Origin: Lethocerus indicus
Taxonomy: Eukaryota > Arthropoda > Insecta > Hemiptera > Belostomatidae
Assembly (NCBI GenBank): GCA_019843655.1
Contig: JACDQD010000001.1
Location: 43,985,159 to 44,049,158 of the forward strand
Direction: 5' to 3'
Length of the DNA: 64,000 nt
Shown: positions 4,841 to 36,141 of the stretch, piece by piece
How positions within the stretch are numbered: the first letter of the stretch is position 1
How the letters are laid out: each line of letters opens with the position of its first letter
Position numbers and translations under genes: made by a program
The notes under the pieces: generated by a model
What the model saw: the letters and a program-made list of their open reading frames with translations, nothing else
What the model was told of the DNA's origin: nothing
Databases searched by the model: none

Positions 4841-5376
4841 GAGGTCTGTTCAAAAAGTATCGTGAATTTTAGATTTCCGCGAAATAAGTATATTCACTCT
4901 ACGGTTTTTTTGTAGCCTCATGTTTGTACACATTTATCTCACTTATGCTGACAATGTCAGCCGTTGTTAATGTTCAGTTAATCTTCTAAAGCAGCTTTTC
5001 TTGCACGTTTTTTTAGTTCGTCTGCGATTTTTACCCATTCAGAAAAATGGATTAGAGAATTTCTGTCAAATTTTGTGTGAAACAAAAATTAAGTGGTCGG
5101 AAGCATATCGAATGTTGACTGTGGAATATGGTGAAGCTACCTTAGGCCGAAGCAACGTTTATCGGTGGTACAAAATGTTTTCAGAGGGCCGAGAAGATGT
5201 GAACGACGAAGGGCGTGCCGGACGCCCGAGCACGTCAAAAACGGACAAAAAAATTGTGCGCGAATTTTTGGCCAAAAACAACACACTAATAATGCCGCAG
5301 CCACCGGATTTGACCAGATCTGGCCCCTTGTGACTTTTTCTGAAAACTGGAAAGGCACATGAAAGGACGACGCTAC

Positions 5377-7046: not shown

Positions 7047-7235
7047 GGAGTCGGGCGGACGGCCAAGCGAGCGGTCGATCGAGGCTCGTTTATATTATAG
7101 AGTAAACGGAAGGGCCGAGTATGCCGGTAGGCCGGCCTCTGGCGGTGTAAATAAATAGGGACAGGTAGGGCTACCGTGAGTCACGGAGGACCTGCCGGCG
7201 GATCGATACGACTAAAGGGAACCCGATGTACTTAC

Positions 7236-8350
7236 CCTAGAGTGGTCATGGTGACAATGGTGTACCAGAAGGCGGCCGGTATGGAGGTGAAGTTGGTTCC
7301 GTCGACGTTCTTCTCCGCATAGAAGATGACCGTGGCAAATATGATGATCGCCATGGCCAACGAGAAGACGAGAAACCCGAGCTCCGAGGCGCAGGATTTT
7401 AACGTATAACCTAGAATACGGAGTCCCTGAGAGTGGCGGGAGAACTTAAAGATCCTGAACACTCTGAATACTCTAAGGGTGACGAAAGCGCCGGAAACGT
7501 CGCCGTTGTCCGTAATCCCGAGACCGATATAATAGGGGAGTATAGCGACCACGTCGATGATGCTCATTACGCTGCGAACGAACTTGCAGCGATCGGGGGC
7601 GGCGAAAAGTCGGAGGAGGTACTCGGCGGTGAATATCATGACGCAGGCGGTGTCTAGACAGAAGAAGACTATCTTGTAGCGTTCGCCGCAGGGGAGAGTG
7701 CCTGCTCTGCCGGGCCTGTGGCCGCACGGTACCGTCTCCACTACGTTGGCCATCACGGAGACTGCGATGAAGAACCCCGTCACGTAGTAGAACACCAGGG
7801 CCGCCGTCGAGGTGTGCGGGTTCTCGAACGCCCGCCACATTTTCTGCCTGATGTTGGTCAACTGGGGTAGGTTCTGGTCCCCGTTCTCCGATAGTTTGTC
7901 GTCCATCAGCCTCTCGGCGTTCTCCCGTTTCCTGTCCCTGTAGTCCTCGTAGCAGCAGTCCCCTATCACGTCGGGGAGGATCCCAAAAAACGCCAATTCC
8001 TCGTCGTAGCTCGTGAGGCACTCGTGCTTCGGGTAGTGGAGCTTCCCCGTCCTGTAGTAGTTGAGGATGTGCCTGAATATGTCGGGGTCCCGGTCGAAAA
8101 AGTATTCCTTGCTCTCTTCGTCGAAGAAGAACTCCCTCTCGTTCGACCCCAGGAGGGTGTCCGGGTACTTCTCTAACGTATTTCTCCAGGTTTCGAAGCG
8201 GCGACCGGACACGTTTATCAAGAGCTTCTCGTCGTCGGTCTTCCGACGGTCCTTGGGTACGGGAGGCGGAGGCAAGGGGTGGGTGGCGATAGGCACCCAT
8301 CCTATGGCCGCCGCCCGGGCAAAGGGGAGCCAAGCGGCGACCGAGGCCAT
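7236..8350 (-). CDS. Shal: Shal/Kv4 voltage-gated K+ channel, first coding exon (partial)
   Basis: This exon encodes the first 371 residues plus two bases of codon 372 of a Kv4 A-type potassium channel alpha subunit, a plasma-membrane protein that shapes neuronal and muscle excitability. The start at 8350 gives [20 protein letters not shown], the N-terminus typical of insect Shal and the segment where Kv4 auxiliary subunits (KChIPs in vertebrates) bind. The T1 tetramerisation domain spans about 41-133 and keeps the zinc site HX5CX20CC (H105, C111, C132, C133). Transmembrane segments are S1 about 183-205, S2 226-247, S3 258-278, S4 288-308 with repeated Arg ([13 protein letters not shown]), S5 322-344, and the pore helix to 371. 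The exon ends at a strong donor (GTAAGT, reading from 7235 down) inside the filter, after TTLG, so the remaining pore, S6 and C-terminus must lie in exons beyond 7235 toward the left; I find none in the window. The near-identity to insect orthologues makes the call secure. Confidence 0.97.
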
Positions 8351-9283
8351 GCTGTGCGGTGGAATCTTCCACTATGCGAGCTCTCCCAGCGGGAGGACGA
8401 GACGGTGGTCGCGCTCCGGCTCGAGAGGGCCCCCTCTCCGATCGCCCATATCGTCTTATCGCTCACCGCGTCCACCTCCCTCCCTTCCCGCTCCTCCTCC
8501 TCTCGGTGCTCTCTAGCTACGTCCGCGGTCTCCGGACACGCGGCCTACTCTCCTCTAGGGCTCCGCCGACTAGATCGATTTTGGCCGCCGCTCCGCCACC
8601 TCCCGCCCCCACCACCCGGGCCCCCGTCGCCCCGGCGACCGTGACGTCACCCTCTCGGCTCGACCTACATTTCCTCCCGCCCCTCTCTTATCGCTTCAAT
8701 TATTTTACGCTCCCTCGTCTCGTCCGCTCGTCTTATTAGCTCTCGCTCGGCGGACCCGCCCCCGGCCTTGCTCTCTTCCCTCCTCCTCGCTCTGGGGAAC
8801 TCCGAAATACTACCGCGCGAAATCGTAAAGGACGGGCCTGGGGCTTGTAAAAAGACGATAAAAGGGGGAACGCTCGAGGAAAGCAGTCGGACGAAGGCCG
8901 AGTAACCGAAACGGATTTAAAAAATGGAGTAGTCGGCGTGGCCGCCACCCCCGACCCCCGAGCTCTGGTCCGGCGCTCCACGGCGCCTTTTTTTACCTAC
9001 CTATTCCGTCGCCGCCAAATTCGGAGTTTCAAATTTTCTTCGGACGTAAACTCCAATTAAAAAAAACGGCTAACATTCGTTTTTAATCGCTTTATTATAG
9101 TCGGGTTTATATTCGGAGAGGAGAAAGATATTGTCTGTACGATCTTCCGTTAGGTTAGGATACGGTTTGAGCTCGGAGTGGGGCGTAGAAGAGGGGCGCG
9201 TTACGTAAGGTGCGGGATTATATAACTTAGCGAGCGACAAGGGCCCGATGCGCCATAGGGGGAGCGGATTGTTTCGGGGGAGT
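8351..9283. promoter_or_regulatory. GC-rich upstream region shared by Shal and a divergent candidate exon
   Basis: The stretch is strongly CpG- and GC-rich from about 8250 to 8990, with long pyrimidine-rich runs on the plus strand (purine-rich on the Shal sense strand). It must contain Shal 5' leader sequence and probably its promoter. A TATATAA at 9219-9225 is near-symmetric (ATTATATAAC), so it could act in either direction. It lies 59 bases before the plus-strand ATG at 9284. Promoter function is inferred from position and composition only. Confidence 0.45.
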
Positions 9284-12156: not shown

Positions 12157-12655
12157 CTAGCACTTTTGACGAGTATCAGGGCTACAGAGCGAGAAGATCT
12201 TTAGGCAAGTGGTGTTTAAGTCGTCGGGGATGCGTAACACAACAGAGCGACTTAATTCAACCAGTGAATTAGGATGAGGAGTGAGACGGGAATGAAACTT
12301 TAGGAACCGGGATTCTATAAATTCGACAACTGTTCGTATGTTGCGGTCGTGGTGAATGGTGTGTTTTGAATCATACCAGTGAGCATTAAGGATAGTTCGA
12401 AGGACTTCTGATTGGAATCTTTGGATGTGAGCAGTTAGGATATCATGGTGGAACCCCATAGGTTCTATATCGTATATCCACGTCGGTTTCAATATGGCTC
12501 TGTAGATTATGAGTTTGATAGCTAACGTCAATTTTGATGTCCATTTTAGTAATAGCTTTACTAGTCCTAATTACCGGTTTAAGTCGATTCTTCGTTGTTG
12601 GGTATAGGTATGTTTCGTGGGAAGGTATGCGAATTTGGCATAGAGATATCGCCAA
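12157..12655 (-). pseudogene. jockey-clade LINE reverse transcriptase, C-terminal fragment
   Basis: On the minus strand two overlapping frames encode the thumb/C-terminal part of a jockey-like non-LTR retrotransposon ORF2. Recognisable motifs are KLIIYRAILKPTWIYDIEPMG (written in part: the LK-P-W-Y-G block), HIQRFQSEVLRTILNAHWY and the RL-HPNSL block near the end. A frameshift near 12450-12530 separates the upstream part. There is no catalytic FADD box here, so it is a 5'-truncated dead copy. Sequence from about 12050 to 12150 is probably its 3' tail. Confidence 0.8.
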
Positions 12656-14852: not shown

Positions 14853-15069
14853 GTAGGTTCTATGATCATTTCACGAATATAAATTAAAAAAAAGTTTTAT
14901 CGCCCTTTTGAAATTACCCTTTTTCCTTTGGTTTTATGATTAAACTGTAATCCAGTATACGACATATAACTTCGGCAGCATGGGTTCGAAAAACTAAGAC
15001 AAAAAGTCCATTCAAACTTTTGACTTCAGATTCGTGTGTTTCTGTTTCCTCTCGCTGGTTAGGTCTTTT

Positions 15070-15106
15070 GCTAGACCGGTTTCGGCTGCTCGCCATCTTC
15101 AGTAGC
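15070..15106 (-). ncRNA. candidate small hammerhead ribozyme (copy 1, left arm)
   Basis: Read on the minus strand: stem I GCTA/TAGC; core CTGAAGA (fits CUGANGA, where position 7 is free); an extra U; stem II GGC-GAGCA-GCC; GAAA; then ACCGGT and C before the predicted cleavage site. ACCGGT is self-complementary, so stem III would form between two molecules. An extra base between A9 and stem II has precedent in natural hammerheads. Activity is untested. Confidence 0.6.
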
Positions 15107-15297
15107 GGTGTTAGTCATTTTGGGACTTTGGATGGTTTTGGGCATCCTCACTGCACCGTCACTGTCGCTTGTTTTATTGTATCCCTTGATCTTTAGTGAA
15201 GTACATTTCACAGTTAAGCATATTTATGATTTTCAAATATATGGCAGGAAACCTATCTTATATTGTGTATTTACGATCATAAAAGTTTTCTTTTATG

Positions 15298-15490
15298 CCC
15301 AACGAACTTTAGTTGAGTACATTTCCACGCCACACTCAGTGGGGCGCTAGTATATCGGCGCAAGTGCACCAAACGAACTTTAGTTATGTACATTTCCGCA
15401 CCATCCTCAGGGGGCGCTAGTTTATCGGTGCAAGTGCACCCAACGAATTTAGTTAAGTACATGCCTGCACCACCCTCAGGGGGCACTAGT
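15298..15490. repeat. tandem ~70-bp repeat inside foldback copy 1
   Basis: Three imperfect units start at about 15298, 15369 and 15438. Each contains CAACGAA-TTTAGTT, GTACAT, then CTCAG-GGGGC-CTAGT and, in the first two, GCAAGTGCA. The same unit recurs in the opposite orientation in copy 3 (34858-35020). Confidence 0.9.
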
Positions 15491-15702
15491 TAATCTATAT
15501 CTAATAATTTTTATTGAAAGAGAAAGATATAAATAAATACGTAATATTTTAAGATAAAAATAAAAAAAAGGTAAGTCATAAAAAATATGCTTAAGTGTGA
15601 AATGTACTTCACTAAAGTTCAAGGGATACAATAAAATAAGTGACAGTGACGGTGCAGTGAGGATGCCCAAAAACCATCCAAAGTGCGAAAGTGATTACCA
15701 CC

Positions 15703-15739
15703 GCTACCGAAGATGGCGAGCGGCCGAAACCGGTCTAGC
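15703..15739 (+). ncRNA. hammerhead-like core (copy 1, right arm), probably inactive
   Basis: Same architecture as the left-arm copy, but the core reads CCGAAGA, replacing the invariant U4 by C. Stem I GCTA/TAGC, GAAA and ACCGGTC are kept. Established hammerhead rules predict little or no cleavage. Confidence 0.5.
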
Positions 15740-17706
15740 AAAAAACCAAACCAGCGAGAGGAGACAGAAACACATGAAATCTACGGTATTCAAACCCCTC
15801 GCAGACCACAAAATAGCTATGTTAAACTGGTATTCTAAACTTTTGACTTCAATTTCTAGTACATAATATAATAATGAATTCAGCAAAAACAATTGTTACC
15901 TCCTTATCTTCTTCAGTACAGGAGGATTCCATACTTTTGTTATCCCGAAGTAAAATTAATGATATGGAAAAAGGTTAAAGTTGCGAGTGGAGGCAGAAGA
16001 TCACAAGAACCATGGTAATGAGAAACATATTTTAACAACATCACAGAAGAACTAACACCAATAATCCTACTCTGTAAATATTAGGAGCCCATTTTACAAT
16101 CTGGAGAAGATATGTTATATGAAGGAGTAGTTATCCTTTAGGATTAGAATGTCGGGTCCGACAACTGATGAAATCAGAGAGAAGAAGACTCGTATCACTA
16201 AGACTGAAGCCATACACTTTACTTTTAGGTCGGAAAGAACAATCCGGTTCCAATATGAACGTTCTATTCTAACACGATGGATGTAATTCGAAGTCAGGTA
16301 TTGTGTATATAGGAGGGGGACAATTTAATACCGGGAACGGTTATTAGATTTTCTAATTATTGTTATTCATGTGCAATGGAATTTAATTTTCACGCTATAT
16401 TTAGAATTACTCTTGAGATTCTCTGTATAAACTCGATTGAATATTACTACGGCGCTAATGAAGATGGCTAATACTGATAAAAAAATCAGCATGGATCATA
16501 AGTGGATGAATATATGATGACCTTCCCAAACAAATGTTCTAAACTAAATGTGATCAAATTACATAACTCTCTATCTGTATATCTCTACAATGAAAATAAT
16601 ATCGGTATGGCTTGTACAACTGTGCCAATAGTAGTAGCAGTAGTAGCGGCCAAATGTGTCATATTCTGCCTATTATCAAACTACGACCGGGTAAGTGTTA
16701 ATGCTCCACGATACCCACGATAGATAACGGCAAGAATCCATTAATTTGAATCCACGGTTCAAAATCACGAATTTTCTGAATCACAGAAAATGAAAATCTG
16801 AAGTTAAATATGTGTACAACTTCAGAAAATCGTGAACTATTTTTTAACTCGCAGTTTTACCGAAAATTACAATGAAAGATTAGAACATGAATGAAAACTT
16901 ATTTTATATAAATCAAGTAAAGTATATAATAGGGCAAAGTATATAATAAGGTATAAATAAATTATAAAATCGTCAAAATAGCTCGAATTGTCGGAAAGAA
17001 AAATTTTCTGGTTTTCAGTGACGGTATCGATTATATATCTACGTGAGCGACGTTAGCGTCCTTGCTGGACAGCTGGATCGCCTTGTTGCTGTGGGAATTT
17101 TTCTTGTTTCTGTTACTGTTCAAACAGAGTCAGAAGAAGGTAAGAATAAGTAAGAAGTGGGGAGATATAGCAATTAGAGGGGGGCCGAGCGTCCCCCACC
17201 CAATCGATATTCCAGACAAACCCACCTTACCTACCTTCCACGGCGCATACTTTTTCAAATCGCCGCCGCGGCACCTCCCAAGTTACAATTCTCATCGAAA
17301 TTCCCAATTAGGGATCCCAAACGCACAGTGGAAGTGCAGCCAGGATGCCCCACAGTAGACACCTGAAAACGTTCTAGCAAAATACCAAACCAAATTATTA
17401 CCTTTGTTTGTACGGTACGAAACGACAAACAATTTGAGTGGAAAACTTCCGGACAAGAATACGACAAAAAAACATTACTAAGCTAGCCGGACTCAGCTCC
17501 CGCTATAGTCATTAGGATACTGTCGTTATTATATTGTGAGATCGGCTACCCACGAAGCAGGATGTATTCTTCAGCGGAGTGCCGCTTATTTCAGTCGCTC
17601 CGTCCAACAGTCCAGTTACTGCTGGCAAAAGTGAATTGAACATATCGAGTTGGTATGAACGTACAATAAAACTTTAATTTAATCATCCTCGATTCGGAAT
17701 TTATAG

Positions 17707-18954: not shown

Positions 18955-19687
18955 GTCTATCAACTTAAAATTCATACTTCACATCCATACGCCTTATGGA
19001 CGTTGCAATATTCATAAGTATAGATATTTATACCTAAACAGTATACTGGATACGGAACCGCTAACTTTTATTGTTTAATTGATTCAAACTATCAATTTTA
19101 TTGTATACAAATATTCAGAAAAGATAATCTGTACTGTCCATTATTCGAAGAAGATTACCGAAGCCCTCTAGTTTGTTTTAAATTACAGTATCTACAATGA
19201 CCATAATGTTACTTTCATTCTCGGTTTGGCACCATTTCGATTGTTCCGATCACTTACCGATCCTTTAATTTTTTCCACTTCCTTATTCCATGTTCCAGTA
19301 ATTGGAACCAGCCATTTATTATTGGTATTTGATGGGGGTCAGCTAGGGTTTGGGATGTTTTCTGTCTACACTACACCGGTTTCGGATTCTTCCCATTGTC
19401 GGTAGCATACCGCTAGTAATATGGTGAAATGCTATGGACTGGAAATGCTGACATACTGCGTTGTTGGCAGCCGGTACGGGCAGATACCGTATATTATTGA
19501 CGGATTGCTCTTTAGGATGGCGCAGATAATCCCTAATAACGATGATATTCTACGCTCTCGCGGGCCCTCGTACGGATAGGTAGAAAATAAAGAGGGAAAA
19601 GCTTCCATATGCCAACGAATCGGTAGATATTGCAAAAATGTAAAAAAAAGTTTTATCAGAAAATTAAAAGCGAACATTGTTTTACAG

Positions 19688-19817: not shown

Positions 19818-20301
19818 TTTTTATATAATCAGACCTTTATACGATCCAATTTATTATTGTGTAATATATTAATATTGTTATAAGGATTTAATTGTAACGT
19901 TTTATAGTAATATATTTATATTGCTGTTCGATTCTAATTGCGTGTAAACGTTCCCGAAAACTTCATTAACGTTTTATACAAAACTCTTTTTAAACATTTA
20001 ATTTTGCAGAAATTTAATTAAACTGGGCCTTGTGTAAAATTCGGCCAATATATTGAAAACATGTATGGTGAAATTAAATTTTGAGCCCGAAAAGAGTCAA
20101 GGATGGAATTATCCCAATCGTGGATCCTTTAAAAAAGGATGGTCCTTTATTTCATTTTGTCGGTACATTATTACACAGTTACGCTTATTCTGAAAACGAT
20201 TCCATTACATGTTTTTCGTAATCGTTCTTTGATTTAAAAATGTAATTTTTTTTACCGTAGGTTCGTGGTGTTTCTGTCTCCTCTCGCTGGTTTGGTCTTT
20301 T

Positions 20302-20338
20302 GCTAAACCGGTTTCGGCTGCTCGCCATCTTCAGTAGC
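20302..20338 (-). ncRNA. candidate small hammerhead ribozyme (copy 2, left arm)
   Basis: Minus-strand GCTA, CTGAAGA, U, GGC-GAGCA-GCC, GAAA, ACCGGT, then U17 and TAGC. The residue before the cleavage site is U instead of the usual C, which is tolerated but slower in known hammerheads. Stem I and stem II pair fully. Confidence 0.55.
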
Positions 20339-20470
20339 AGTGTTAGTCACTGTTGCCACTTTGGATGTTTTTTGTTTCACTTGTACTGTCACAAGTACTG
20401 TCGACAGTCAAAGTGACAGTGCAGTGAGGATGCCCGAAAACCATCCAAAGTGCAAACAGTGACTAACACC

Positions 20471-20507
20471 GCTACTGAAGATGGCGAGCAGCCGAAACCG
20501 GTCTAGC
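20471..20507 (+). ncRNA. candidate small hammerhead ribozyme (copy 2, right arm)
   Basis: Full match to the motif: stem I GCTA/TAGC, CTGAAGA, an extra U, GGC-GAGCA-GCC, GAAA, ACCGGTC. With 15070-15106 it is the best-preserved copy; the two are identical over the 37 nt. Confidence 0.6.
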
Positions 20508-21831
20508 AAAAGACCAAACCAACGAGAGGAAACAGAAACACCACGAACCTACGGTATTCCAACCCCTCGCCGACCAGGTATATTAAACTAATTTTTTTTA
20601 TGTTCGCAAACTTGAAAATCACTGAAACTATTGAAAAAAATACCACCCGTGACTGCATCTCTAAATCTATCGAGGGTACAACATAATACCATGAAAATTA
20701 GTCTATGAATAAATAATAAATAAATATTACCACGAATATTTATTTAGGTTCCTTAGATTATCAACCTTGTTCCATGATAGAAAATTTACATTTTAAGTAA
20801 CATTAATCAATCCTAGAATGCTTTTAATTTATTTGATTCTTTTTCTCCAAAATATAATATATTTTCAAATAATAGAAAAATTAGAATATTATTTTTATTT
20901 AATTAAACTGCAATAACCTAATGTTGAGACAAAAAAGGATTTTTGGGTTATTGTACATGTTGGCAAGCTCTTCTTACATTTATGAATACTTCTTATCTTT
21001 ACCATTTTATTAGGAATGCTGCTCCATTTAAAGAATATAGACATTAACATGACTAATCTATCAGGATTCCTCTACATATTATGTTTATGTATAATCTTTA
21101 TGAGTGCTATTTTTCCTGCTGAAAAAACCATACAGTTAATAAGTATTAATAATAATAAGTATTATTGCATAATTTTTATATTATAAAAAACAGAATTTTT
21201 TTAATAGCAAATACCTGTTCATTCTAATATATGTTATTATAAGGTTTTAGGGAGATAATTTCAATTTAATTTTTCAATAATTCTATTATATTACTATACT
21301 TTATATTTGTTAAGATAATTTTGCTGAAACTATTGTAATAAAGTATAGATTAACTGACCTCATCTTGTGCTGGAAGGATTCAGGACTGAGGATAATGCAG
21401 TCTATAGTTTAATATTCTAACATATTCAAGGCATTACTTTTCTTAGTATCCATATAATGGTTAAATCAATTTTAAAATAATATGTGTCAGACAGGAACAT
21501 TAAATATTTTGTACATTTTTTACCAGTTAACAAATCCCGTAAGGTGATTAGAATAACATTAATTTATTACATCGATATTCATTTTTCATCTAAAGCAAGT
21601 ATCACATATGTCTAAATTCCTAAATATGAGATAAAGGTGAATTTTTAAGTATGGATGTATAATGATTAGTCATGTCCTATATGGATTCATCCTGAAACCA
21701 TATATCAATAATTATACTTGGAAAAGAAATATTCAAAACAAAAAATCAAATGATGTAACAAAAAATTCCTAGTCCTAGTGTTAAAAAATGCTAGCAATGG
21801 TTAAACAGATTTTATTTTATCTCTGGGGTTG

Positions 21832-29600: not shown

Positions 29601-30074
29601 GTGCGTTTCGTTCGTCTCACGAACATGGTGAGAAACCGAAACCGGTCTAGCTTGTGCCCAAATAAGCGATAAAAAGTCATTAAACGCCGAAGGTTTGTTA
29701 TTTGCTGACTATCATACTCCAACGAGAAACTAATTTGACATTTGGCAAAGTCTAACCTAAATACGCTATTCAAATAAATATTATTTAATATCCCTGTTAC
29801 CTAGCCATACAAAAATAGAACAAATATCACTCCCGACTTACGCACATATGGTCCAAACCCTCCTATTTCCTGACATCCCAAACGTTCCTTACAAACGCCT
29901 CTGACCTAAACATACCACAAAAATAGAAAAATAAAAATAAAACTTTTTTTATTTTCACAACATTCAAATACAATAAGAGACGTTGATGCTCGAACAGCAT
30001 TACTAACGAGGGAATAACTAGGGAGAAATAAATCCGTATGTCCAAATTTGTGTAAGTATAGCGTTGTACAGTAA
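26601..30074. other. non-coding stretch
   Basis: No convincing exon. At 29618-29651 there is a partial hammerhead-like core (GAAACCGGTCTAGC with a decayed 5' half), preceded by GCTGTGACAGTGC. At 29951-30010 there is a repeat related to 56085-56150. Confidence 0.4.
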
Positions 30075-33238: not shown

Positions 33239-34683
33239 TGAGGAACAATTTTTTAATGAAAAGTTGTTCTGACACCTTAGGGGTTAGTGGAAGCCTAAAC
33301 AAATTGAATCCGAATTTTCCAAATAGTCCGTACCGTGAAATTTTATTGTATCTTAATTATATACCTCTTTACAACACCCTTAGAAAGAGAAGTATATTTA
33401 ATCAGTTCAAATTCGAATTATTTTGTAACATAACCACACGTGTTCATCCCCCCGCCATAACCGCTCGTCCGGTGTTTCGGCTTCTAGCTAACCAAGCAGT
33501 CACGAAACGGTACAGTGGTAGCGACGGTAACCGATGAAGCATCTTGTCCGCACTTTCAATTACAATACACACTAATACTGCCGATACCGAACTAACGGTA
33601 TCGTGCGGAAACGGAAGAATTGTCAGACAGCGATTCTCGATGACAGGAGTGATTTTTATTAACCAACAGGACTGTTGTATAGCGTGTACTTTTAAAGATA
33701 TAATAATTTCAACCGGGACCTATTTTTGTCATGGAGAGTTGGCCTATAGACGAGAGGAGGAAGGACGAGCCCAGTATAGACCTCGTGACGGCAGTGGGCG
33801 TCGGAACGCTTTGCAAGGAATTTTCGGAAGCAATTTTGCAGCGCTCACTGCGCATAATTCCCAGGAAGGGTTCCTCTTCCCTGTCCGATGGATTAAGGTT
33901 TCAATTAAAATATCAATAGACGACGCAAACCCCTCTACGTGGCGGCACCGGGATAGGGCGCTTTGCTCGGAAACGACGAAGATTTCCGGGCAAAAACCGA
34001 CGGGGGAATGAGCCCGCGATGAAGAAGAATAAATTGGTTCAGTACTAAAGGTTAAAGAACCAGTCACCATTTAACTCCGGTACACTCCTTGACTTTCAGT
34101 CGGGTAGTTTGTTATAAACTTGTCGAAATTAAAATATTTTAACCTACTGAATGAATTAAAGTGCAAAGTGTTCGGTGCGAGCGGGTATACACATCTAGAG
34201 AGGTTTACCGTCGCGATGGAGGTCCACGTTTCGAGCCGGCGGAAGGAACCGGAGGAGGATGTAGTCGGGCCATGGCGGACAATGCATGAGTGGCTCACGG
34301 CTTTTCAACCACGCGCTTATAATAAATAACAGATTGGGCGAACGACCATCGATCGACGACTGCCGCGGTCGACGTCCGGCAATTGTCCCACCGGCGGGCG
34401 GCTGCGACTTGAAAACGGTACCGCGCACCTGTCTCCAACTATCCGGGACGAACCACCGGCCAGATCCAGAACAAACAAATTAGTTCCCACCTTCCGTGAA
34501 ACTACACCCAAACCAACTACAAACATTAACTGCTGCTCTTTATTCCTTTATCCCCTGATTAGAGCCCTTCCTTGAGATATACCGCGTCATCGAACAAATA
34601 AGCGATGGAAATAATTATGATGAATCCTGAAAAATGTTTACAAAGAAAACCTCGCTCAAAACTAGTTCAGAATACATCTTTGT
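33239..34683. other. non-coding stretch
   Basis: Several moderately long open frames overlap here, but none has a recognisable domain or matching splice sites. I call nothing. Confidence 0.4.
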
Positions 34684-34857
34684 GGTCTGCGAGGGGCTGG
34701 AATACCGTAGATTTCGTGTTTCTCTCTCCTCTCGCTGGTTTGGTCTTATGCTAGACCGTTTTCGGTTGCTACCCTTCACCGTCGTTAGTATTCCACCCTC
34801 TGGATTCCCAACTCTGGACTCCACTCCAACTATTTAAATTAATTATTGGGATTTTCA

Positions 34858-35020
34858 AGTTCGTTGGGTGCACTTGCGCGGATAAACTAGCGCCCCCTGA
34901 GGATGGTGTGGACATGTACTCAACTAAAGTTCGTTGGGTGCACTTGCACCGATAAACTAGCCCCCCCCCCTGAGGGTGGTGCGGAAATGTACTTAACTAA
35001 AGTTCGTTGGGCGCATTCGT
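34858..35020. repeat. tandem ~70-bp repeat inside foldback copy 3
   Basis: Just over two units of the copy-1 tandem motif in reverse complement (TTCGTTGGGTGCACTTGC, GATAAACTAG, CCCCCTGAGG). Confidence 0.88.
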
Positions 35021-35259
35021 TAGGGGTAGTCTAGATTACTAAAAGAAACTTTTTTCAATAAATTTTGAATCAACAGGAAAACTTATGATCATAAATACAC
35101 AATACCAGATAGGTTTCCTGTCATATATTTGGAAGTCAGAAGCAAATAGTTGTGACCAGTTGTGTGATCAAATATATATTTGACCGATAACCCGACTAAA
35201 GACTAAGCCAATCCCCCCCAACCAAAATAAGACAAAAAAATCCCCCAACACAATAACAA

Positions 35260-35597: not shown

Positions 35598-36048
35598 ACG
35601 GGGGCTCGCCACTGACTATGACCTAGTGTCACACTGCCAAAACGGATATTTTTGTTTGAACTTCACTGAGCGCCTGGGGACCTGCATTCAACTGGCCGCG
35701 TTTGTGAATGAAACACCTCTGCTTCACATGCACGAGCTTTATAAGATGGAACAACCATCCGTTCTAACGAACCGGTAGAATGGTTAACATGAAAAACAGA
35801 GAATAACACCGACGGGCACAAACACTATCTCAATTTTATAAAGAAAAAATACTGGATGTAGTTTAACATACTTTTGTGGTCTGGCCCCACCCCCCTCAAC
35901 TCAAACAAGACAAACAAATTCCCCCCAAAAACACAATAACAAGATACGCATATATACACACTACAGACAGACAACCACCACAGTACTAGTGACAGTGACA
36001 GTGCAATGAGGATACCCAAAGAACATCCAAAGTGCCAAAAGTGACACC

Positions 36049-36085
36049 GCTACTGAAGATGGCTAGCAGCCGAAACCGGTCTACC
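36049..36085 (+). ncRNA. hammerhead-like core (copy 3, right arm)
   Basis: CTGAAGA, the extra U, GGC-TAGCA-GCC, GAAA and ACCGGTC are intact; the distal stem I strand is TACC rather than TAGC, leaving one mismatch. The left-arm partner (34750-34788, minus) is more decayed. Confidence 0.5.
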
Positions 36086-36141
36086 AAAAGACCAAACCAG
36101 CGAGAGGAGACAGAAACACACGAAATCTACGGAATACTGGA

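Follow-up and report, generated by a model that had tools for sequence, protein, structure and literature searches.

Arms of a Penelope-like retroelement in the Lethocerus indicus genome carry a probable minimal hammerhead core around the start codon

The 64,000-nucleotide stretch of Lethocerus indicus DNA analyzed here (the window) contains several copies of a 37-nt core that had been proposed, from the letters alone, to be small hammerhead ribozymes of Penelope-like retroelements (PLEs), built for cleavage as dimers through a palindromic stem III. Small PLE hammerheads are reported to cleave in this way, reputedly in work by Lunse, Weinberg, and Breaker in 2017 and by Cervera and de la Pena in 2014. 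The locus raises two questions: what kind of repeat carries these cores, and do they represent hammerheads?

Searching both strands with up to 3 mismatches, we recovered the core at all four sites named in the original prediction, with exact copies at 15070 and 20471. The copy at 20302 has 1 mismatch, which places a U at C17 and still satisfies the descriptor given below, and that at 36049 has 2. The search also revealed a fifth core with 2 mismatches, absent from the prediction, at 15703. No core match appeared on either strand of 100 dinucleotide shuffles of the window at the same threshold. The predicted stem letters, the extra U, and the very short, self-complementary ACCGGT of stem III all stand in the window sequence as described.

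We expressed the hammerhead as a descriptor consisting of a 4-bp stem I, CTGANGA, 0–1 extra nucleotides, a stem II of 3–5 bp, GAAA, A..T, H, and the second strand of stem I. It matched the window three times, at 15070 (−), 20302 (−), and 20471 (+), indicating that three of the five near copies are formally intact, with every core letter, stems I and II, and the palindromic stem III that had been proposed. No match was obtained on either strand of 150 order-1 Markov windows. The core at 15703 fails the descriptor with CCGAAGA in place of CTGAAGA, and the core at 36049 with a mismatch in stem I. Decayed core-like copies also occur at 29615 (+) and 19370 (−) and in the arm at 34681 (−); in several of the decayed copies CTGANGA is gone and it is chiefly the 3' half (CCGAAACCGGTCTAGC) that survives. 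In the exact plus-strand copy, the cut would presumably fall between 20503 (C17) and 20504, a position that we place from the hammerhead consensus. The coordinates of all features are collected in Table 1.

The Rfam search that had been suggested as a check did not return a hammerhead family for the window, either at the gathering score or up to an E-value of 10, and a search of 141 bases alone likewise gave no hammerhead match up to E 10. A genome-wide search with RF00008 produced 0 matches, a result that says little because its 14 control genomes were silent too.

Table 1. Cores, arms, and insertions in the window, with the basis of each assignment
Feature	Position	Strand	Basis
Element A, head-to-head arms, ~470 nt between	15028–15836	+	arm and repeat comparison
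Element A, flanking 15-bp direct repeats, AAACTTTTGACTTCA	15014–15028, 15837–15851		
Core, exact, left tail-less arm of element A	15070–15106	−	mismatch search, descriptor
Core, right tailed arm of element A, CCGAAGA	15703–15739	+	mismatch search; fails descriptor
Degraded core-like fragment, 9 mismatches	19370–19406	−	core comparison
Element B, whole insertion, head-to-head PLE pLTR arms	20255–20590	+	arm and repeat comparison
Element B, target duplication, left, 10 bp, ATTTTTTTTA	20245–20254	.	sequence
Element B, target duplication, right copy	20591–20600	.	sequence
Element B, left arm, tail-less	20253–20374	−	arm ends
Core, left arm of element B, C17 = U	20302–20338	−	mismatch search, descriptor
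Element B, right arm, tailed	20406–20590	+	arm ends
Core, exact reference copy	20471–20507	+	mismatch search, descriptor
ATG in core (A9, extra U, first G of stem II), start of PLE N-terminal frame	20481–20483	+	sequence, frames
Alternative hairpin GGUCU/AGACC over cut site (arms 20500–20504, 20511–20515)	20500–20515	+	folding prediction
Degraded core-like fragment, 8 mismatches	29615–29651	+	core comparison
Degraded arm without CTGANGA	34681–34770	−	arm comparison
Tail-less arm	35988–36135	+	arm ends
Core with stem I mismatch	36049–36085	+	mismatch search; fails descriptor

The 427-Mb genome contains many copies of the repeat in whose arms the cores sit. Unnoticed in the original prediction, the cores at 15070 and 15703 and those at 20302 and 20471 belong to the two arms of inverted pairs, elements A and B. 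In element B, positions 20253–20372 and 20437–20556 are 94% complementary over 120 nt and lie 64 nt apart. The tail-less arm at 35988 (+) may be the partner of the degraded arm at 34681 (−). Related tandem units of ~71 bp are found at 15298–15495, between the arms of element A, and at 34857–35141, beside this degraded arm. Elsewhere in the window, frames assessed by eye only resemble a mariner transposase fragment (4971–5333, +), a voltage-gated potassium channel exon (7232–8371, −), and a non-LTR reverse transcriptase fragment (12157–12570, −).

The proposed link to Penelope elements was borne out by a retroelement coding region adjoining the core. At locus L028, a coding stretch with GIY-YIG letters lies upstream of the arm and on its strand, and a literal GIY-x10-YIG is present in translated endonuclease (EN) copies beside the arm. 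A genome search for the endonuclease gave at least 150 matches (150 of 635 candidates scored). The arm follows the endonuclease on the same strand in all 20 loci examined, or ~15 without alternative-haplotype duplicates, at a distance of 242–270 nt in 18 of them, 179 nt in L060, and ~130 nt in L053. Further upstream, in several loci, lies a reverse transcriptase (RT): RVT_1 scored 31.9 bits in a fragment of L054 and, under the cut-off of 29.6, 22.6 bits in a fragment of L063. Protein relatives numbered 75 and 317 (120 of the 317 listed), with PF00078, PF26215, and, in some, PF01541; the best named ones among those listed come from Rhynocoris fuscipes (48% identity) and Ranatra chinensis (45%). 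The PF01541 profile gave 0 matches in the host genome, although 12 of 14 controls match, and the endonuclease fragments returned nothing or chance-like matches against Pfam and only weak chance-like matches against NCBIfam and PDB.

A damaged copy, L069, contains an arm, RT, EN, and a second arm in direct order, and its first arm runs past the tail point towards the RT. Its two cores, the first with an insertion, are in direct order, whereas those of elements A and B are inverted. Together, the RT (profile score and relatives), the GIY-YIG endonuclease, the head-to-head pLTRs, and the AT-rich target duplications described below identify the repeat as a Penelope-like retroelement and the arm as its pLTR. 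When a second PLE family, which could inform on covariation, was sought among 16 low-identity endonuclease loci, 13 proved to have an arm of the same family (E < 1e-30), and no arm was found in L073, L074, or L084. Two further arrangements were observed. A tandem array of a PLE piece outside the window (G000:C1:10485175-10509057) has endonuclease matches ~1.7 kb apart, all on the plus strand, and six loci (L048, L050, L054, L061, L067, and L070) have long repetitive arrays of PSTTHILP-like open-frame units upstream of RT-EN.

An ATG is formed within the core by A9, the extra U, and the first G of stem II, which accounts for the extra U of CUGAAGA-U-GGC; some other hammerheads also accommodate an additional base at this position. 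This ATG is position 76 of the 194-nt arm consensus, and 38 frames of at least 39 codons, the minimum length recorded, start from it with MAS (e.g. MASSRNRSSKRPNQREETETPRTYGIPTPRRPQNRYIKL). As the ORF starts inside the core, cleavage after C17 would break the ORF 23 nt from its start, most likely within codon 8, and would detach the start codon from the remainder. We favor, with a probability of roughly 0.8, a reading in which the core is part of the PLE pLTR and would form, in element RNA, a minimal type I hammerhead around the ORF start. A small PLE hammerhead with a palindromic stem III, as originally proposed, thus remains the best reading; the expected tandem arrangement does not hold for the pairs in the window, which are inverted.

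The strongest competing explanation, which we regard as unlikely, is that the core has been kept for another reason (start-codon context, N-terminal coding, a protein-bound RNA site, or exchange between arms) and that the hammerhead is a non-catalytic relic. The presence of the ATG inside the core is in its favor. Old copies bear on this explanation. From 69 loci selected solely by their endonuclease, we took the 27 whose arm bins could be measured and whose 3' region fell below 0.85 identity, and 19 of these were kept; L121 and L122, places outside the hit list, were left uncounted; in the other eight (L073, L074, L084, L101, L108, L110, L111, and L117) the arm was absent or not clearly alignable, L074 showing a weak partial arm match. 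Compared with a main-family copy, the 19 old copies have an identity of 0.78 in the EN, 0.76 in the 3' region, 0.89–0.90 in the part of the arm preceding the core, 0.94 in the core itself, and 0.86–0.87 in the ORF stretch that follows. In 16 of the 19, conservation is higher in the core than in the remaining arm (Wilcoxon p = 0.0003). All 27 loci gave the same order with smaller differences (3' region, 0.72–0.75; q1–60, 0.81–0.84; core, 0.87–0.89; after the core, 0.82–0.83).

The two halves of the core, non-coding (q61–75, 0.939) and coding (0.936), are about equally well conserved, and the non-coding half exceeds both flanks, which argues against a relic. Some old copies are possibly chimeras with a main-family arm, as the relic explanation would allow, but such chimeras lift the whole arm and do not easily explain a peak at the core. 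These data show extra conservation of the core within the arm, its non-coding half included, and are evidence for constraint.

We also examined the letters of 128 cores with up to 9 mismatches from all loci. The intact pattern is retained in 76 and lost in 52. In this set, which is partly selected by likeness to the core, non-CpG sites averaged 3.8 changes each where essential and 7.0 elsewhere; CpG sites showed only 3.5, though they are expected to decay fastest. Only 3 of 896 stem cells are changed on both sides and still pair (one T-A and two G-T). The lack of real covariation is compatible with a relic, but the copies of this one family are near-identical, so the question of covariation in stems I and II can hardly be answered from them.

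Folding predictions also speak partly for a relic, as single RNAs are predicted to fold otherwise. In a single arm, the hairpin GGUCU/AGACC over the cut site has pair probabilities of 0.91–0.96, and its pairs are kept in 102–109 of 113 cores per pair; imposing stems I and II carries a penalty of 5.6 kcal/mol. The core alone is predicted to fold no better than shuffles (z = −0.81). For two 37-mers, the predicted value of the hammerhead dimer is −20.1 versus −23.0 for the lowest dimer fold. Conversely, a relic would leave unexplained a full descriptor that is not reached by chance, and in the available text on an anole PLE the same ORF overlap is described for a hammerhead that does cleave (PMC11167929).

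Because the arms of element B are inverted and not in tandem, its transcript is predicted to fold as a long hairpin (−240.7 kcal/mol) with the core buried in the 120-bp duplex. We infer that the inverted window copies would not be expected to cleave; one possibility is that their extended hairpin RNA supplies small-RNA silencing instead. On the element B hairpin (20341–20468), Rfam returned weak matches, far under their cut-offs, to the plant microRNAs MIR2934 and MIR834.

We searched the genome with an 86-nt query, which gave at least 41 matches (40 of 2431 arm candidates scored), and fetched 38 loci around them. These loci are the best matches to one query, and conservation within that stretch was consequently left unused. 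Two pairs of them, L009/L010 and L011/L015, have common flanks and look like duplicates. In addition, the contig pairs C4/C144, C8/C123, C8/C99, and C10/C99 carry identical insertions in identical flanks, which suggests that alternative haplotypes are present in the assembly.

The arms end at two points, ~76 nt (tail-less) or ~119 nt (tailed) from the core ATG. Both ends could be classed in 26 of 37 neighboring head-to-head pairs, and in 23 of these 26 a tailed end is combined with a tail-less one, the pattern being broken by L021 and by two pairings that involve nested fragments (L040 and L044). Of 26 elements, 24 lie between direct repeats of 9–17 bp that differ at no more than 1 position, none having been found around L036 or the window pair 34681/36135. 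Since these repeats are the best matches that a script picked within a small region, their exact lengths are uncertain and chance may account for some of them. The flanking target repeats are 82% A+T, compared with 61% for the window.

To weigh two templates against self-priming, we compared the arms with one another. Arms of the same element are about as similar (0.933, 24 pairs) as arms of different elements (0.929); tailed and tail-less arms are distinguished solely by columns at the end itself. The two arms of one element nevertheless have 25 non-consensus bases in common, against 8.2 ± 2.7 in shuffled pairs (22 elements; reached in 0 of 2000 shuffles). Independent templates for the two arms were dropped on this account, and the excess indicates a common template, or related ones, for the arms of one element. 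Across the window and loci L009–L046, 70 of 78 outer-ended arms cross the cut point; none of the 78 starts exactly at it, and three start within a few nucleotides (101, 102, and 102, two of them duplicates). This read-through agrees with uncut RNA as the insertion template. That 70 of 78 arms derive from RNA uncut at the site would also suit a relic.

Two other kinds of element were considered and rejected. A metazoan retrozyme, a non-autonomous tandem repeat with a canonical type I hammerhead that spreads as circular RNA, would share with our family a type I hammerhead in a mobile repeat, high copy number, and mobility of the non-LTR type. We consider it very improbable, since the family has RT-EN copies and the loci examined are inverted pairs or single arms, whereas retrozymes are described in the available text as 150–450-bp tandems with canonical hammerheads (PMC7229834). 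A cut-and-paste transposon or MITE with long terminal inverted repeats would account for the inverted arms and the flanking direct repeats but has next to no likelihood, given that most elements have ends differing by ~40 nt, that inner junctions are variable, that arms are also found singly, and that RT-EN coding, in place of a transposase, adjoins the arm.

Returning to the hammerhead reading, the layout would be C3-U-G-A-N-G-A9, stem II, G-A-A, a self-complementary stem III, C17, and stem I, with one core per pLTR in PLE transcripts. Stem III would be completed by a second core, in the same or a second RNA, or by bound PLE protein, and source copies would cleave after C17. Judging from the observed ends, reverse transcription would start within the ORF, ~76 or ~119 nt from the ATG. 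Insertions would end at these two start points, usually one per side, producing head-to-head pairs with one tail.

An extension of this scheme, which we put forward as a doubtful possibility, is that the ribozyme acts as a start-codon switch. In a single RNA, the hairpin GGUCU/AGACC would hide the cut site and leave the AUG translatable. Binding of protein at the RT start region, or ACCGGU pairing between two pLTRs, might then allow the hammerhead to form, and the cut would remove the start codon and stop translation of that copy. Uncut RNA would template insertions, with both RT starts used once, one per target strand.

Several of these properties have parallels in known elements. The Poseidon PLE of Anolis carolinensis (PAc), reported as a first PLE active in vitro, is alike, as far as the available text goes, in its pLTR hammerhead, an ORF that begins at stem II with C3 and G8 preceding the start codon, and the cutting of AT-rich DNA targets (PMC11167929, Frangieh et al. 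2024). Its ribozyme cut lies 26 bp downstream, versus 23 nt into the ORF for the cut predicted here, and its tail is defined by two adjacent internal RT start points 111–118 nt into the ORF, versus ~119 and ~76 nt (PMC11167929). For PAc, no difference in RT start is reported between the two strands, whereas our elements have mostly unequal ends, in head-to-head pairs with one tail. PAc also differs in host and family, and its ribozyme was measured to cleave only with added protein, ribozyme mutants still being inserted (PMC11167929); the core described here is known from sequence.

The Penelope elements of Adineta vaga resemble ours, according to the available text, in their head-to-head pLTRs with a single tail, short target duplications (8–10 bp), and an ORF start inside the pLTR, and self-priming was proposed for the inverted order (PMC3846280, Arkhipova et al. 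2013). The word "hammerhead" occurs 0 times in the available text of that study. Few copies are described there, compared with the 635 endonuclease and 2431 arm candidates found here.

PLE hammerheads are described, in the available parts of three sources, as minimal, with most of helix III missing, possibly acting as dimers, and as requiring a palindromic stem III and tandem order (PMC7761336, PMC6466107, PMC6155905). By description, our core is alike in being a minimal type I hammerhead with a short palindromic stem III in a pLTR (PMC7761336, PMC6466107); the tandem order differs from the inverted window copies, and the ribozyme copies of elements A and B would be inverted fossils rather than working tandem dimers. 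The role of the hammerhead in Penelope elements is called a mystery in the available text of one review (PMC7761336). The small PLE hammerhead is an already known kind, to which this family adds a well-populated example with evidence for constraint on the core, a start codon inside it, and a counted one-tail pattern. It provides a large genomic record on PLE hammerheads, in which the core is conserved beyond the remaining arm, its non-coding half included, most sampled insertions derive from RNA uncut at the site, and most have one tail.
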